Source: Desulfatibacillum alkenivorans DSM 16219
GTDB lineage: Bacteria; Desulfobacterota; Desulfobacteria; Desulfobacterales; Desulfatibacillaceae
Reading direction: 5' to 3'
DNA length: 64,000 bases
NCBI RefSeq assembly: GCF_900142135.1
Contig: NZ_FQZU01000010.1
Coordinates: 62,001-126,000 of the forward strand
Part shown: positions 12,185 to 39,111 of the stretch, piece by piece
How the letters are laid out: every line of letters starts with the position of its first letter
How positions within the stretch are numbered: the first letter of the stretch is position 1
Made by a program: the position numbers and the translations under genes
The notes under the pieces: model-generated
The model's database searches: none
Told to the model about the DNA's origin: nothing
The model's input: only the letters and a program-made list of their open reading frames with translations

Positions 12185-12282
12185 TGGCGGAAGTGCATGG
12201 GAATCGAACCCACCCGGGACGTTGTTAGCGCCCCACACCGGATTTGAAGTCCGGGAGCCCCACCAGTGAGCTGCGCACTTCC
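12185..12282 (-). tRNA. selC: tRNA-Sec (anticodon TCA)
   Basis: On the minus strand the 98-base gene begins GGAAGTGCGCAGCTCACTGG and ends GCACTTCCGCCA, with the CCA encoded. The acceptor arm pairs eight bases (GGAAGTGC with GCACTTCC), longer than in ordinary tRNAs. The anticodon loop is CTTCAAA with TCA at 12245-12247, which reads UGA. A long variable arm (GTGTGGGGCGCTAACAACGT) lies between the anticodon and T arms. These are the hallmarks of bacterial selenocysteine tRNA, which is charged with serine, converted by SelA and delivered by SelB. A UGA-containing client, fdhA, lies about 10 kb away in this window. Confidence 0.97.
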
Positions 12283-33103: not shown

Positions 33104-33131
33104 TTGACAAAATTCTGGAAGCCGGTATCCT
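33104..33131 (+). promoter_or_regulatory. Sigma-70-type promoter for the thrombospondin-repeat gene
   Basis: TTGACA at 33104-33109 and TATCCT at 33126-33131 are 16 bases apart, with the gene start 70 bases downstream. The rest of the 32810-33200 spacer is AT-rich and shows no other element. Confidence 0.55.
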
Positions 33132-33200
33132 GTAAATCCATCAAATCCATGCAAAGGTCCGTTGCCTTACAAAGATGTTCTTGCGAAAGGGGTTCCGCCC

Positions 33201-35063
33201 ATGCTGCGAATAATGAGCGCTTTCTCTATGGCTTTGTTGCTGGCTCTTGCTGCTCCTGCGCTCTGTTATGCAGGGGCTCCCAGCGACTTTGTGATTAACG
33301 AAATCCATGGGGACCCCGCAGGGGACGCCAACGGCGACGGGCTTATAAACAACGGAGACCGGTTCATTGAATTGGTTAACGTAAGTTCCGAGGCCGTGGA
33401 CGTCTCCGGCTGGACGCTCTCCGCGGCGGCGGGAATTCTCCATGTCTTTCCCGAGGACACAGCCGTTCCGCCCGGATACCCCGTTGTGGTCTTTGAAGGG
33501 GACGTTCCCGCGGGCCTGGATGATTGCGCCGTGTTTCAAACCGCCAGTTCCGGGGCCGTGTCCATTGCTCCCGGAATGGACATAATAAATCTTAGCGACG
33601 GCTCCAGCACCAGCTCGACTTATGGGGTGATTGGGATCGACAACGGGCAATCCCTTAACAGGAATCCCGACCTGGATGCCCAAGATGTTTATTATTTGCA
33701 CACCAACATTGATGGATCGAACGGCAAGCTGTTTTCCCCGGGCGTTCGGGTGAACGGCTTCCCCTTTGCCGCCGACTGCATCTGCCCCGTATCCTGCGAT
33801 ATGGACGGCGACGGCGTTCTGGGCGTGAGCGACGCCTTGTACATCATTCAAACCGCAGCCGGCGGCAGGCCGGATCCGGGCTATTACCACTGGGGCGTCG
33901 GCGCATGGTCCCCCTGCTCGGAAACGTGCGGAGGGGGTGCTTACACCCGCGAGGTGGTCTGCCTGGACGGAAACGGCGCCCAAGCGCCCGACGGGTTCTG
34001 TCCCGATCCCAAACCCGAATCCACCGGCGCATGCAACACCCACTCCTGCGATTATTCCTGGAGCGCCGGAGAATGGTCCGAATGCTCCAGCCTTTGCGGG
34101 GGCGGGACTTCCACCCGGGCGGTGGTCTGCCTGGACGGGTCGGGAAAGGTTGCCGCCGATTCATTCTGCACTGGCGCCAAACCCCAGGCCAGCCAGAGCT
34201 GCAACGAATTCGCCTGCACCTATGTATGGGCCGTCGGTCCGTGGTCGGATTGCTCCGCCAATTGCGGGGGCGGGACCTCCACGCGAACCGTCTCCTGTCA
34301 GGACGAAGGCGGAAACATTGCGGCCGACGGGTTTTGCGCGGGAGTCAAGCCGGCCGTGGTGCAAACCTGCAACGGAGATCCATGCTCCTATGGCTGGCAT
34401 ATAGGAGCATGGGAGAACTGCTCCGCATCCTGCGGCGGGGGGGCGCAAACACGCAACGTGGACTGCCGGGATCAGGACGGCAATGTTGTGGATGACGGTT
34501 ATTGTACGGAAATCAAGCCTTCCTCCAGTCAGGCGTGCAATGAGGACCCTTGCGTATATTCATGGACGGTCAGCGCCTGGGGGGATTGCTCGGACGCCTG
34601 CGGCGGCGGAATGCAAACCCGCAGCGTAACATGTCAGGATCAAGCGGGGAACATCGCCGCCGACGGCCTTTGCACGGGCGTTAAGCCTTCCGCGACTCAG
34701 GCTTGCAACACGGACGCCTGCGTGTACAATTGGGCGCTCGGCGCCTGGGACGATTGTTCCGTGGACTGCGGAAGCGGGTTTCAAAGCCGCAGCGTGACAT
34801 GTCAGGATCAGGCGGGAAACATAGTGAGCGACGGCTACTGCTCGGAAGTCAAGCCGTCCACAACCAATCCTTGCAGCGTAACCCCCTGTGAATACAACTG
34901 GTCGGTGGGCTCCTGGAGCGAGTGCTCCACGCCTTGCGGAGGCGGGTTGCAGATTCGCAGCGTCACCTGCCGGGACCAGTTCGGCAATGCAGTGAACCCG
35001 GAAAATTGCATAAACGTACAGCCTGCAGCCACTCAGACCTGCAACACCCAGGCTTGCGAGTAA
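33201..35063 (+). CDS. Secreted protein with lamin-tail, dockerin-like and seven thrombospondin type-1-like repeats
   Basis: 620 residues. Signal peptide (MSAFSMALLLALAAPALCYA), then a lamin-tail-like domain (FVINEIHGDPAGDANGDG ... FIELVNVSSEAVDVSGWTL) to about residue 190. A single EF-hand/dockerin-like motif CDMDGDGVLGVSDALYII sits at about 199-216. From residue 230 there are seven tandem repeats of about 56 residues, each with W..G.W..CS..CGGG...R.V.C and a closing C. This is the ADAMTS/thrombospondin-1 type pattern, common in animals and rare in bacteria. The repeats diverge from one another, so they are not assembly copies. Start ATG 33201 gives the signal peptide. Likely an extracellular adhesive or matrix-binding protein. 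Confidence 0.85.
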   Translation: MLRIMSAFSMALLLALAAPALCYAGAPSDFVINEIHGDPAGDANGDGLINNGDRFIELVNVSSEAVDVSGWTLSAAAGILHVFPEDTAVPPGYPVVVFEGDVPAGLDDCAVFQTASSGAVSIAPGMDIINLSDGSSTSSTYGVIGIDNGQSLNRNPDLDAQDVYYLHTNIDGSNGKLFSPGVRVNGFPFAADCICPVSCDMDGDGVLGVSDALYIIQTAAGGRPDPGYYHWGVGAWSPCSETCGGGAYTREVVCLDGNGAQAPDGFCPDPKPESTGACNTHSCDYSWSAGEWSECSSLCGGGTSTRAVVCLDGSGKVAADSFCTGAKPQASQSCNEFACTYVWAVGPWSDCSANCGGGTSTRTVSCQDEGGNIAADGFCAGVKPAVVQTCNGDPCSYGWHIGAWENCSASCGGGAQTRNVDCRDQDGNVVDDGYCTEIKPSSSQACNEDPCVYSWTVSAWGDCSDACGGGMQTRSVTCQDQAGNIAADGLCTGVKPSATQACNTDACVYNWALGAWDDCSVDCGSGFQSRSVTCQDQAGNIVSDGYCSEVKPSTTNPCSVTPCEYNWSVGSWSECSTPCGGGLQIRSVTCRDQFGNAVNPENCINVQPAATQTCNTQACE

Positions 35064-35067
35064 ATGG

Positions 35068-35172
35068 TCAGAACAGGTTGAAACGAGTCCGCAAGCGGCG
35101 GGAGAGTTCGCGAACCACGCCGAAAGCCTTTTCCACGGTGACCTCGCCGTCCGGGTTGATCAGACAGCAGAC
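35068..35172 (-). pseudogene. Remnant of a second methionine-synthase-like gene (3' end only)
   Basis: On the minus strand this stretch reads CCLINPDGEVTVEKAFGVV followed by RELSRRLRTRFNLF and a stop. It matches the last 33 residues of the protein at 37082 (there RELSQRLRERFQLD). Upstream the frame meets a stop within a few codons and no further similarity is visible. Several substitutions separate the copies, so this is a decayed paralogue rather than a recent duplication. Confidence 0.8.
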
Positions 35173-35228
35173 ATACTAAATTTCTCCTGAAAATTCAACT
35201 TATTATGATTTGGGAAAATGATTTGGCT

Positions 35229-36017
35229 TTAATCAAAGTCCTGCAATCCTAATCGCCGATTCCCGATTCTCCGGAATGATTTAGACATCCAGCCCATGAG
35301 CGTTTTTATGTGTCGGACATCGACCCAAACTTCCCTTGGCGCCCTGCCGCCATACCTGAACGTAGTTCCTTTTGGATCAAACTCATTGAAAACCAGGACT
35401 ATATCGCTGAACCATTTTGGTAAGGTTGCATCAAATTCTGACTTTAGTATTTCAATAAACTCTTTTTGTAGCTCTACTAAGTCATGTGTCTTCTTCCACT
35501 TGCCGATAGTCGCCTTGAGATATAATTCCGTTGCATGCCTGTAATTGAAGAGTATCGGGTTTACAAGCTCAAAGGCTTCATCATTGTCAATGGCTGCGTC
35601 AACGAGAATGTCCCCAGCATTTTTATAAGAATCAGCAATTTCAAAGATATCGCCATACTCAGACATACCATCGAATAATGCGCCATGCAGCCAGTCTTCA
35701 TTTAGTCCTTCCGGGCGCTCAATGAATAAAGGCGTCAATCCCGTAATGAAATTATCATAGATATCTTCATAATGCCCGTTGGTATTCAAGCCGATTTTTA
35801 TTGCTTCAATATCCGCTTCATCTTCCCAATAATAAAAGACGTAGGCAAAGACTCGAAGGTCTTCTGCGGAAAACTTTCGTGGGGTTCCTTTCGGGGGATT
35901 TGCTGCGGGCTCAAGATAATCAGAAAAAATGTAAGCCCATTTCTTGATTCGGTCACGGTCAGTCCTAAAATACTTGGCAGCCTCGGAAACACTGAATTTC
36001 ATCTCATAGTTGGGCAT
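35229..36017 (-). CDS. Hypothetical protein, MerR-like N-terminus and HEPN-like C-terminus
   Basis: 262 residues. The N-terminus (FSVSEAAKYFRTDRDRIKKWAY) resembles a MerR-type winged helix-turn-helix. The second half contains NYRHATELYLKATIG and KKTHDLVELQKEF, a pattern seen in HEPN-type nucleotidyl or RNase domains found in defence genes. No known family was recognised. It sits between the decayed methionine-synthase remnant and a NYN nuclease gene. The base composition is visibly more AT-rich than the neighbours, consistent with acquisition from elsewhere. Confidence 0.5.
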   Translation of the reverse strand: MPNYEMKFSVSEAAKYFRTDRDRIKKWAYIFSDYLEPAANPPKGTPRKFSAEDLRVFAYVFYYWEDEADIEAIKIGLNTNGHYEDIYDNFITGLTPLFIERPEGLNEDWLHGALFDGMSEYGDIFEIADSYKNAGDILVDAAIDNDEAFELVNPILFNYRHATELYLKATIGKWKKTHDLVELQKEFIEILKSEFDATLPKWFSDIVLVFNEFDPKGTTFRYGGRAPREVWVDVRHIKTLMGWMSKSFRRIGNRRLGLQDFD

Positions 36018-36239
36018 TTATACTCTACTCCATAGTTTCTGGATCATGACTGCACAACTCAACAACTGTTCTCAAAGTTTTCGGGCATTCCAGCCCCGCC
36101 TTTCCCGGTGCTTCCCAGCCCGCTCATTAAGCTGCCAGGCCAAGGGCCTCCTCTGATTTGGCTTTCATATTATGTAAGTAAAATGATAAAAAGTGCGGCG
36201 AGTGTCAAGTAAATGCCATTGCTTCAAACTTCATTTTTC

Positions 36240-36269
36240 TTGACATATGAGACTGTGAACCATTATAGT
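36240..36269 (+). promoter_or_regulatory. Sigma-70-type promoter for the second NYN gene
   Basis: TTGACA at 36240-36245 and TATAGT at 36264-36269 with an 18-base spacer. A transcript from about 36276 would pass through the hairpin at 36313-36332 before the ATG at 36358. Confidence 0.6.
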
Positions 36270-36312
36270 ATATGTAAGTGAAAACTACCCCCGTGGTTTC
36301 GACCTGGGGCGC

Positions 36313-36342
36313 GGGGCTGCTTCGGCGGCCCCTGCTTTTTTT
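36313..36342 (+). terminator. UUCG-loop hairpin with T run in the NYN gene leader
   Basis: GGGGCTGC (36313-36320), loop TTCG, GCGGCCCC (36325-36332), then seven T to 36342. The ribosome binding site AGGGAG and ATG 36358 follow. The arrangement mirrors that before the first NYN gene at 15872, so an attenuator role is possible. Confidence 0.6.
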
Positions 36343-36357
36343 AGGGAGCCAAAGCAA

Positions 36358-36876
36358 ATGCGGACATCCGTGTACATTGACGGCTTCAACCTCTATTATC
36401 GCGCTCTGAAGAACACCTCCTACAAGTGGCTGGACCTGAAGCAGCTCGCGGCCAATTTGCTTCAGCCAAAACACGTAATTACCGAAATAAAATACTTCAC
36501 GGCCATTGTCTCCGGTATTTTTGACGCCCGCCAACCCATCCGGCAAAAGACTTACATCCGGGCTTTGGAAAGCTACATCCCTGAGGTTTCCGTCCACTAT
36601 GGTCATTTTCTGAGTCACACGGCGTCTTTACCCAGATCTCCTTTAACCCAGCCTCCCAGCTTCGCCAATGTCATTAAAACCGAGGAAAAAGGATCCGACG
36701 TCAATTTGGCCGTGCATCTTCTTAACGATGCGTGGCTGGATAAATACGATTGCGCTATAGTCATTTCGAACGACAGCGACCTGGCTGAACCCTTGCGTCT
36801 AATTCGTGAGCAAAATGGCAAATTGCTCGGTCTCTTATCCCCTCTTGTCCAGGGACATCCCTCCCAAGAACTGTAG
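36358..36876 (+). CDS. NYN domain putative ribonuclease cut short by an in-frame amber codon
   Basis: 172 residues up to TAG at 36874-36876. The NYN motifs are intact: VYIDGFNLYYRAL, EKGSDVNLAVHLL and VISNDSDLAEPL. The frame continues past TAG for 34 more codons to TGA at 36979-36981 and reads KHAHFVKRIRKGVLKVSQLP followed by SMIPGTNITKPPSW. That is the expected C-terminal tail of this family, so the intact product would be about 207 residues. A CAG to TAG change would explain it. The truncated protein keeps all acidic catalytic residues and may still be active. Start ATG 36358 follows AGGGAG. Confidence 0.8.
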   Translation: MRTSVYIDGFNLYYRALKNTSYKWLDLKQLAANLLQPKHVITEIKYFTAIVSGIFDARQPIRQKTYIRALESYIPEVSVHYGHFLSHTASLPRSPLTQPPSFANVIKTEEKGSDVNLAVHLLNDAWLDKYDCAIVISNDSDLAEPLRLIREQNGKLLGLLSPLVQGHPSQEL

Positions 36877-37081
36877 AAACACGCCCATTTTGTCAAACGC
36901 ATCCGCAAAGGCGTCTTGAAAGTCTCTCAACTGCCATCAATGATACCCGGGACCAATATAACCAAGCCGCCTTCCTGGTGAATTATCCCCGCAATACCCC
37001 AAAGAACGGACAGTGTAAGGTGTAATATCTGTTCAGGTAACAGGGCAGCCCTATTTGCGAAGTGACTTGTTCTGGGAGGCG

Positions 37082-38107
37082 TCAATCCAGCTGAAATCGC
37101 TCCCGCAGCCTTTGGGAAAGCTCCCGCACCACGCCGAAAGCCTTTTCCACGGTGACCTCGCCGTCCGGGTTGATCAGGCAGCAGGTGGCCGGGGAAATAA
37201 GGCTTTGGGCGAAAAGCATGTCCCGGTCCACGCCCCGGGAAGCCAGTTCATCCCACAGGCTCACCAGATACTCCTCCAGGGTGGAAATGCCCTCTTTTTC
37301 AAAAGGCTCCACATTGGTGGGAACGATTCCCCAGACCAGGGTATTGCCCTTTTCCAAGAATTCCTTGATGGCTTTATGGTACGAGGTGAACACGTTCCCG
37401 TTGGAATAGACGTCCAGGGACAGGATGTCCATGTCCAGGCCCAAGAGAAAATCCCAGGAAGGATTTCCGCATAAATGAACGCCCCGGGGCCGGTCGATCA
37501 TGGCGAAAAACTGGTCCAGGTCCTTCTTGGCTTTCATGTCGTCGTATCCGGAAAGGGCGGAGAACACGAACTGCAGGCCCGGTTCGTCCACAAACATGAA
37601 GGCGTTGGGGTTCAAGGCCTGCAGCCGGGTGAGCTGCACGTTCACCCTTTTAGCCATGAACTCCATCATAAAAGGCCGCACCATATCGTCGAAGATAATG
37701 GGCCGGTCGTTTTCGTCCTTCACGTTAAAACCGAAGCTCACCGGGCCTTCCAATTGCCCGCGCACGGCCTTTTTTTGAGACAGATCCATCTCCAGAAAAC
37801 GATGGTAAACCGCGGAGTATTGGGGGCTTACGTCAAAATACGCAGGCTCCTCAAAATGAGCCATGGCTTCTTCCAACTCCAGGGCGAATTTTTCGGAGGA
37901 AAAGCTCAGCAACTGGTTTTCCATGTCCAGGACAATGCCCGGAAAATGCTCCGAAGCCTGGACGTACATGTCCTCGTAATACGAAAGCCTGGGCAGTTGA
38001 GGCCAAAACGGGACGTCCAGGGACCACGCAAGGTCCAGGGCCCTGTTTGCGTCCGTATGGGGCATGACGGCCATGGCCGTGGTGCGAAGATTTCCGGGTA
38101 TGGGCAT
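37082..38107 (-). CDS. Core-MetE methionine synthase-like protein (possible folate-independent type)
   Basis: 341 residues, corresponding to the C-terminal catalytic barrel of MetE without the N-terminal half. Zinc-site positions are visible: GVHLCGNPSWD (His and Cys), DILSLDVYS (an Asp where MetE has Glu) and SLISPATCCLINPDGEV (Cys). Stand-alone core-MetE proteins include the MesA-MesD families, which take methyl groups from corrinoid proteins rather than folate. The MesB type occurs in anaerobes with the Wood-Ljungdahl pathway, which fits here, but assignment needs an alignment. Start ATG 38107 has AGGAGG 6 bases upstream. An ATG at 38113 overlaps the CDF stop as ATGA. It is the last gene of the csoR-CDF operon. 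Confidence 0.82.
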   Translation of the reverse strand: MPIPGNLRTTAMAVMPHTDANRALDLAWSLDVPFWPQLPRLSYYEDMYVQASEHFPGIVLDMENQLLSFSSEKFALELEEAMAHFEEPAYFDVSPQYSAVYHRFLEMDLSQKKAVRGQLEGPVSFGFNVKDENDRPIIFDDMVRPFMMEFMAKRVNVQLTRLQALNPNAFMFVDEPGLQFVFSALSGYDDMKAKKDLDQFFAMIDRPRGVHLCGNPSWDFLLGLDMDILSLDVYSNGNVFTSYHKAIKEFLEKGNTLVWGIVPTNVEPFEKEGISTLEEYLVSLWDELASRGVDRDMLFAQSLISPATCCLINPDGEVTVEKAFGVVRELSQRLRERFQLD

Positions 38108-38109
38108 GT

Positions 38110-39111
38110 TCATCCTCCTGAATGTTGAGCGTCATGGCAATGGCATCGGCATTCGTGGTCCTGACAGGCGCGAACTTCCACGTTAACATGGGCCGCGTTG
38201 GGCAAATCCGCAAGTCTTGCCTGATACTCCTCGGGCTGGCGCCCCTCTCCGGTAACCACCGTGGCCAGGATGGACACCTCCTTGGAACCCAGCCTCCATA
38301 CGTGCAGGTCGGCTATGCGGCTTTCGCCGTCCGACTCAATCAGTTCCACCGCCTGCTTGCGGATTTCCGGGTCAATCTCGCCGTCCAGCAGGATTAACCC
38401 TGTGTCCTTGAGCAATCCGTAGGCCCACCTGCTTATAAGCAATCCTCCCACAATTCCCATGACCGGGTCCAGAAAAGACCAGCCAAGGTATCTGCCGGCC
38501 AAAAGAGCGGCCAGGGCGAACACGGAGGTCAGAGTGTCGGCGATTACGTGTAAATAGGCGGCCTTGTAGTTTTGGTCCTGATGGCTGTGATCGTGACCAT
38601 GGTCGTGGTCATGATCGTGGTGATGGTGGGAATGGCCGTGGTCGTGTCCGTGTTCTCCGGAGTTGTGCAAAATAAACACGCTGGCGCCGTTGACGGTCAG
38701 GCCGACGATGGTCACCAGAATGGCCTCGTCAAAGGCGATGGACACCGGGTTGAAAAGACGGTGGATGGACTCGTAAATCATCCACAGGGCCGTTGTCCCT
38801 AAAAACAGGGCGCTGGTGTATCCCCCCAGAATTCCGAATTTGCCCGTTCCAAAGGAAAACCTGCTGGATTCCATGTGCTTCCTGGCCAGCAAATATGCGG
38901 CGTAGCTGATGCCCAGGGCGAATGCATGGGTTCCCATGTGCCAGCCGTCGGCCAAGAGGGCCATGGACCCGGTGAGGTATCCTGCGGTTATCTCGACAAT
39001 CATGGTGGATGCGGTGAGCAAGACCACCATGAGGGTGCGCTTTTCGTTCTTGCCGTCAGACTCGCCGAAGTGGTGGTCATGGGCGATTTTGTTTACGGTC
39101 TTTGAATGCAA
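38110..39111 (-). CDS. dmeF: Cation diffusion facilitator, DmeF-type Co/Ni/Zn efflux
   Basis: 333 residues. Six membrane helices with MALLADGWHMGTHAFALGIS in the second segment, the metal-site HxxxD typical of CDF proteins. The loop between helices 4 and 5 is strongly His-rich (runs of His, Asp and Gly such as HGHSHHHHDHDHDHGHDHSH). The cytoplasmic C-terminal domain begins KDTGLILLDGEIDPEIRKQA and ends in a His/Cys-rich tail. DmeF proteins export Co2+ and Ni2+. TTG 39111, 16 bases after the regulator stop, was preferred. Another TTG at 39165 overlaps the regulator by 38 bases. It is in an operon with a CsoR/RcnR-type regulator and a MetE-like gene. Confidence 0.88.
   Translation of the reverse strand: MHSKTVNKIAHDHHFGESDGKNEKRTLMVVLLTASTMIVEITAGYLTGSMALLADGWHMGTHAFALGISYAAYLLARKHMESSRFSFGTGKFGILGGYTSALFLGTTALWMIYESIHRLFNPVSIAFDEAILVTIVGLTVNGASVFILHNSGEHGHDHGHSHHHHDHDHDHGHDHSHQDQNYKAAYLHVIADTLTSVFALAALLAGRYLGWSFLDPVMGIVGGLLISRWAYGLLKDTGLILLDGEIDPEIRKQAVELIESDGESRIADLHVWRLGSKEVSILATVVTGEGRQPEEYQARLADLPNAAHVNVEVRACQDHECRCHCHDAQHSGG

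Follow-up and report, generated by a model that had tools for sequence, protein, structure and literature searches.

ADAMTS-type thrombospondin repeats are typical of animals, and in group-1 repeats disulfide bonds link C1 to C5 and C3 to C4. PMC9198472 adds the group-1 disulfide C2-C6, gives the O-fucose site for POFUT2 as C-x-x-S/T-C, and reports that 65% of the ADAMTS-superfamily repeats having this site carry a proline directly behind C6. The tryptophan-arginine ladder and C-mannose are tied to W-x-x-W/C in PMC6954052, and according to both sources animal thrombospondin repeats rely on O-fucose and C-mannose to be stable and to be secreted. Bacterial lamin-tail domains occur mostly on secreted or membrane-associated proteins and have no known role according to PMC6085458, which also reports that the lamin-tail domain of ExeM is needed for full activity in vitro and is dispensable on plates.

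Here we describe a gene of Desulfatibacillum alkenivorans DSM 16219 whose product joins a lamin-tail domain and a single EF-hand to seven ADAMTS-type thrombospondin repeats; the stretch of 64,000 nucleotides in which it lies is referred to below as the window. The feature is genuine, the module is rare among the bacteria sampled, and the wider pattern of plasmid and phage-tail relatives is the more interesting lead. We found no mention of the protein, of a study of ADAMTS-type repeats in bacteria, or of thrombospondin repeats in phage tails in a literature search of weak coverage, mostly without subscription papers. The organism, called a sulfate reducer in an earlier note made from the sequence, encodes dsrA (TIGR02064, 615 bits; cut-off, 392.85).

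Gene and domain organization

The features of the gene and its 620-residue product are collected in Table 1. The promoter-like site and the AAAGGGG element suggest that the gene may have a transcript of its own; support for the promoter is weak, the same consensus scan returning 3 sites in the stretch scanned compared with a mean of 1.5 in shuffled sequences. The probable signal peptide, recognized by eye, has a short basic start, a hydrophobic core, and an A-x-A-like end, and a similar one opens the orthologue in a second genome of the genus (G370).

Table 1. Features of the thrombospondin-repeat gene and its product, in window coordinates
Feature	Coordinates	Strand	Residues	Basis
Sigma-70-like promoter candidate, TTGACA, 16 nt, TATCCT	33104..33131	+		Consensus scan, 10/12, weak
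Ribosome-binding-like AAAGGGG, 8 bases before ATG	33186..33192	+		Read in the sequence
Gene (ATG to end of stop codon) for 620-aa lamin-tail/EF-hand/7x thrombospondin-repeat protein	33201..35063	+		ORF reading, Pfam
Probable signal peptide	33201..33272	+	~1-24	By eye
Lamin-tail domain, PF00932	33276..33599	+	26-133	Pfam
Calcium-type loop DANGDGLINNGD in lamin-tail domain	33324..33359	+	42-53	By eye
Single EF-hand, dockerin-half-like, DMDGDGVLGVSDALYIIQTAAG	33798..33863	+	200-221	By eye
Thrombospondin repeat 1	33891..34058	+		Pfam, unit alignment
Thrombospondin repeat 2, pairs with G370 repeat 2	34059..34226	+		Pfam, alignment, tree
Thrombospondin repeat 3, pairs with G370 repeat 3	34227..34394	+		Pfam, alignment, tree
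Thrombospondin repeat 4, pairs with G370 repeat 4	34395..34562	+		Pfam, alignment, tree
Thrombospondin repeat 5, without G370 counterpart	34563..34730	+		Pfam, alignment, tree
Thrombospondin repeat 6, without G370 counterpart	34731..34898	+		Pfam, alignment, tree
Thrombospondin repeat 7, pairs with G370 repeat 5	34899..35060	+		Pfam, alignment, tree

The lamin-tail domain scored 47.6 bits in a Pfam scan of the protein (cut-off, 34.3), and within it lies the calcium-type loop DANGDGLINNGD, an addition to the features listed in the earlier note; similar loops are found in the G370 orthologue and in the Glaciecola and G1238 proteins. The best relatives of this N-terminal head outside the genus are secreted proteins combining a lamin tail with an Exo_endo_phos domain; those of G1238 and Glaciecola are each 49% identical to it. 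Surveyed with the head, 6 of the 389 genomes of the order matched; a match in G1252 (E = 9e-4) was set aside as probably due to chance, the ORF looking like a cytoplasmic signaling protein. The genome has one other lamin-tail protein, in which the domain is accompanied by EF-hand halves and the carbohydrate-binding Cthe_2159 domain, so that this type of head is joined elsewhere to a binding module.

Following the head, DMDGDGVLGVSDALYIIQTAAG reads by eye as one EF-hand resembling the second half of the two-half dockerins of the same genome. The dockerin-like calcium motif of the earlier note thus stands as a resemblance, whereas a dockerin as such is not called: PF00404 was not reported for the protein even at E = 10, and one EF-hand half is present where a type I dockerin has two. 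Down to E = 10, Pfam returned the repeats, the lamin tail, and one chance match, with no metalloprotease, disintegrin, or spacer domain, and nothing in NCBIfam matched the protein. The 620 residues show no C-terminal anchor; a single residue follows the last cysteine.

The gene is flanked by an ATP-grasp/CoA-ligase-type protein, an ORF without a Pfam match, and an ORF with an NYN domain, and no operon partner points to a function. The latter two ORFs, both of low GC content, lie in a stretch of about 2 kb (window 35067-37184), at 35229-36017 on the minus strand (42.7% GC, no Pfam match) and at 36358-36876 on the plus strand (NYN domain). A 104-nt direct repeat, a copy of the 3' end of the gene at 37082-38113, bounds this stretch on both sides (35067-35170 and 37081-37184, 81% identical). 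Only 5 bases separate the thrombospondin-repeat gene of G370 from the counterpart of 37082-38113, so the 2-kb stretch of the window looks like an insertion. Elsewhere in the window, a selenocysteine tRNA gene occupies positions 12185-12282 of the minus strand.

Seven group-1 repeats of the ADAMTS type

The repeat region was matched by PF19030 (TSP1_ADAMTS) with 304.4 bits (E = 1.3e-92; cut-off, 23.8) in seven stretches, each passing on its own, followed by PF00090, PF19028, and PF19035 with 137.7, 73.4, and 55.2 bits, respectively. Across the whole 6.47-Mb genome, these seven repeats are the only matches to PF19030, at 51.7 to 57.9 bits each. The units start at residue 231, and six of them are exactly 56 residues (168 nt) long, the last having 54. 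When searched as a DNA pattern, the core W..CS..CG.G...R...C had 7 matches in the 64-kb window, all within the gene, and none in 100 shuffles.

All 12 repeats available from the window (7) and from G370 (5) contain six cysteines, with C1-x3-C2 set in CS..CG, a tryptophan before it, and an arginine after it, as in group 1. Sixteen positions are invariant among the 12, namely W1, W6, C9, S10, C13, G14, G16, R20, V22, C24, D26, G29, C37, P42, C48, and C53. The repeats are group-1, ADAMTS-type thrombospondin repeats, and the family call is correct: the tandem array of seven units of about 56 residues, the matched cysteines, the lamin tail, and the ADAMTS-like pattern described in the earlier note were all recovered, and the profile comparison it had proposed, with a bacterial-only family as the alternative, returned the ADAMTS profile as the best. 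Its motif W..G.W..CS..CGGG holds overall, with two departures: unit 5 has a serine for the first glycine, and unit 6 has CGSG.

The net charge of the window repeats ranges from -2 to -6 and that of the G370 repeats is -3 or -4, whereas five animal repeats lie between 0 and +2; the acidity argues against classical heparin-type binding and binding of polyanions. Recent tandem duplication was rejected as the source of the array: the window repeats are 36% to 62% identical to one another and pair with orthologous repeats, and Tandem Repeats Finder reported no array in the region.

Conservation within the genus

In both genomes of the genus examined, the gene occupies the same chromosomal locus, and its composition resembles that of most neighboring genes. 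The G370 orthologue has 512 residues and five repeats; despite the difference in repeat number (7 vs 5), the order and all aligned cysteines are conserved. The flanking proteins are 80% and 91% identical between the two species, and the head is 65% identical. All 30 cysteines and all 10 tryptophans are retained across the five aligned repeat pairs, compared with 134 of 237 other residues. From four pooled repeat pairs (221 codons), dN/dS was estimated at about 0.12; dS, at 2.04, was near saturation, and in two single pairs it was saturated.

Predicted fold

Consistent with the profile results, the repeats are predicted to adopt the thrombospondin-repeat fold. The structural modeling proposed in the earlier note was carried out on units 3 and 4 (10 alignment rows), the best model reaching a pLDDT of 91.8 and the other four 47 to 61; the whole-protein model, built on two alignment rows, had a pLDDT of 33.9. 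With the two-repeat model, Foldseek returned five matches at E ≤ 0.001, all of them chains carrying thrombospondin repeats: THSD7A, three thrombospondin-1 entries, and C5b6, in which the C6 chain carries the repeats. VIA-align superposed the model best on THSD7A, with Z = 6.8 (rmsd 15.6, 108 aligned), and on semaphorin-5A with Z = 5.0 (rmsd 2.2, 48 aligned), values that the tool regards as middling (Z < 8). The sequence profile of the repeats matched chains of thrombospondin-1, circumsporozoite protein, THSD7A, F-spondin, and CCN3. When viral models were searched by fold, 4 matches without a name reached E ≤ 0.001, and named thrombospondin-domain proteins of algal viruses appeared only at E = 0.3.

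Distribution among bacterial genomes

ADAMTS-type repeats are rare among the bacterial genomes sampled, as the earlier note had expected for bacteria at large, and the survey of the phylum it had proposed placed the multi-repeat form in this genus alone. With the best 16 candidates per genome scored, 6 of the 395 genomes of the phylum matched; the four outside the genus had one match each, at 25 to 37 bits. Within the family, 7 of the 9 genomes had no match. In the phylum of the Glaciecola genome, 1 of 398 genomes matched, and the class of that single genome yielded 3 of 289, itself included; another of these three, G870, encodes a protein with eight repeats as extracted by us. A search of genome contigs with the whole protein returned one locus, the Glaciecola lamin-tail relative, in which Pfam finds no thrombospondin repeats.

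Two genomes of the phylum, G323 (L010) and G243 (L011), encode a secreted-looking astacin peptidase carrying one thrombospondin repeat and a MAM domain (the G323 protein was the one scanned), an animal-like set of domains.

Relatives on plasmids and in phage tail regions

Of 72,556 plasmid records, 5 matched the protein: two from Azospirillum and one each from Erythrobacter and Sphingosinicella through the repeats, and one from Streptosporangium through the lamin tail; none covered 80% of it. On plasmid p1 of Azospirillum sp. TSA2s (L022), two thrombospondin-repeat proteins with a common N-terminal part are encoded directly after traK, a virB10-type gene, traV, and traA. None of the 50,697 annotated phage records matched the whole protein, so the link to phages rests on domain-level matches in IMG/VR contigs, and PHROGs gave one weak match, to the head (E = 0.004). 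On the plasmid and phage record searches, we rejected a plasmid or phage as the source of the window gene itself.

Scanning IMG/VR with the core pattern yielded 23 stretches; their reading frames showed a thrombospondin-like repeat in 11, on 9 contigs, and none in the other 12. PF19030 was passed by all six proteins scanned, which come from five of the contigs, the one at L056 scoring higher with PF00090. The neighbors were scanned for two contigs, revealing baseplate J and tail-fiber genes beside L060 and a tail collar/fiber gene beside L078. The tail-region proteins of L060, L078, L063, L069, and L059 have a short N-terminus with a W-K motif and one ADAMTS-type repeat; the C-terminal part of the phage repeat proteins varies from one to the next and is glycine-rich in two cases. 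No comparable tail-gene neighborhood, the mark of a phage tail adhesin, exists at the window locus.

A tree of 63 repeats over 56 columns united the 12 repeats of the window and G370 in one clade (96/85), with three phage repeats as the nearest group (83/72, below the star mark of the tool). The repeat phylogeny proposed in the earlier note was thereby obtained in part: its animal rows come from solved structures and include no C-terminal ADAMTS repeat. Mean pair scores of the window repeats were 174 with G370; 109 to 119 with Azospirillum, phage, and G870; 77 with Sphingosinicella; 74 with Erythrobacter; and 71 with the five animal repeats. The Y-x-W entry was considered as a bacterial-only signature and rejected because human THSD7A has Y-x-W too.

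These relatives allow a broader reading, to which we attach a rather low probability: ADAMTS-type repeats may make up a standing pool in prokaryotes, common to the surface proteins of bacteria, to conjugative plasmids, and to phage tail proteins, and serve there as rigid contact modules that fold without the O-fucose system of animals. The window gene would then be the multi-repeat, cell-encoded form, and the animal repeats perhaps one offshoot of a module that arose outside animals. If the spread over bacteria, plasmids, and phage tails holds, a module of animal matrix becomes a general contact module and its place of origin is reopened.

Possible function

We consider it about an even bet that the product is a secreted rod, stapled by calcium and disulfides, with a role in adhesion or extracellular matrix. 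Its export, fold, and calcium loops are predicted. The signal peptide would direct export via Sec; the lamin-tail head and its calcium loop, together with the EF-hand half, could make an N-terminal anchor, stabilized by calcium, that holds on to a surface or a polymer; and the seven repeats, with six cysteines each, would fold as group-1 thrombospondin repeats, their cysteines presumably paired in disulfides. Stacked head to tail, they may make a long, stiff arm, which would either offer a repeated binding face or hold the head at a distance from its target, and such a rod might reach out and bind weakly many times over. The most likely target is another microbial surface, a polysaccharide, or a particle, not animal matrix, and the bacterial and phage relatives point to a role in sticking or spacing and not to an animal host.

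The earlier note had proposed adhesion to a matrix or host. A secreted, adhesion-like role is plausible, whereas an animal host or matrix is unsupported, and we regard as improbable an adhesin for such a target gained from an animal by horizontal transfer. That PF19030 is the best family, that ADAMTS-type repeats are at home in animals, and that a human THSD7A repeat shares the Y-x-W entry would fit such a transfer; against it stand the chromosomal location of the gene, syntenic in the genus and with adapted composition, the acidity of the repeats, the absence of the O-fucose site from most repeats and of the proline after C6 from all, and the higher scores of the Azospirillum, phage, and G870 repeats over the animal ones, an argument tempered by the Erythrobacter and Sphingosinicella repeats, which do not outscore them likewise. 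The EF-hand half could instead dock the rod onto a cohesin-bearing surface protein as part of a cohesin-dockerin assembly, which we hold to be unlikely. The genome does have the components (contigs C56, C76, and others; L035-L055): 17 dockerin matches at E ≤ 0.1, 12 of them over the cut-off, stand beside 4 cohesin matches, of which 3 exceed theirs, and one small protein carries both a cohesin and a dockerin; the resemblance to second dockerin halves agrees with docking. The window protein, however, has a single half without a PF00404 call, in an internal position, whereas many dockerins of the genome end their protein.

The kinship of the head with lamin-tail/Exo_endo_phos proteins, together with the in vitro contribution of this domain to ExeM, raises the prospect of an accessory to the turnover of extracellular DNA or polymers, its head derived from secreted nucleases and its rod a mere spacer; Pfam finds no catalytic domain in the protein, no nuclease gene was recognized among the neighbors scanned, and we judge this reading, too, to be improbable. 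Least credible is that the protein derives from a contact protein of a phage or plasmid, as a leftover or by capture, and serves against phages or competitors. The three phage repeats next to the window clade and the plasmid relatives adjoining conjugation genes speak for it, but the support for that grouping is below the star threshold over 56 columns, no phage gene adjoins the window gene, and the phage databases gave the weak PHROGs match to the head and nothing among annotated phages.

Comparison with known systems

ExeM-type secreted nucleases share with the window protein the lamin-tail domain, at 49% identity to the head, and a similar calcium-type loop; they differ in carrying a nuclease domain where the window protein has repeats. 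The plasmid proteins of Azospirillum, Erythrobacter, and Sphingosinicella likewise pass the PF19030 cut-off with similar spacing and a Y-x-W entry in many repeats, whereas they lack the lamin tail, have other N-terminal parts, and read RSDG instead of D-x-x-G, and some of the cysteines are gone from the repeats of Erythrobacter and Sphingosinicella. The phage tail-region proteins L060, L063, L069, and L078 also pass PF19030, with Y-x-W in most of them, and differ in having a single repeat, the W-K N-terminus, a variable C-terminus, and no visible signal peptide.

Given the need of animal repeats for sugar modification, a seven-repeat bacterial array lacking most O-fucose sites allows folding without that help to be tested directly. 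PF10250 (O-fucosyltransferase) had no match in the genome, and the control genomes were equally without one. With the TSP1_ADAMTS repeats of PF19030, which lie C-terminally in ADAMTS and ADAMTS-like proteins, the window repeats have in common six cysteines in group-1 order and the core W....W..CS..CG.G...R.V.C. Unlike ADAMTS and ADAMTS-like proteins, the window protein has no protease, disintegrin, or other ADAMTS domains, and in contrast to animal ADAMTS-type repeats, the repeats of the window and G370 carry the O-fucose site in 3 of 12 cases (2 of 7 and 1 of 5, respectively), never have a proline after C6 (0 of 12), and have no W-x-x-W, the window repeats having W-x-x-C.
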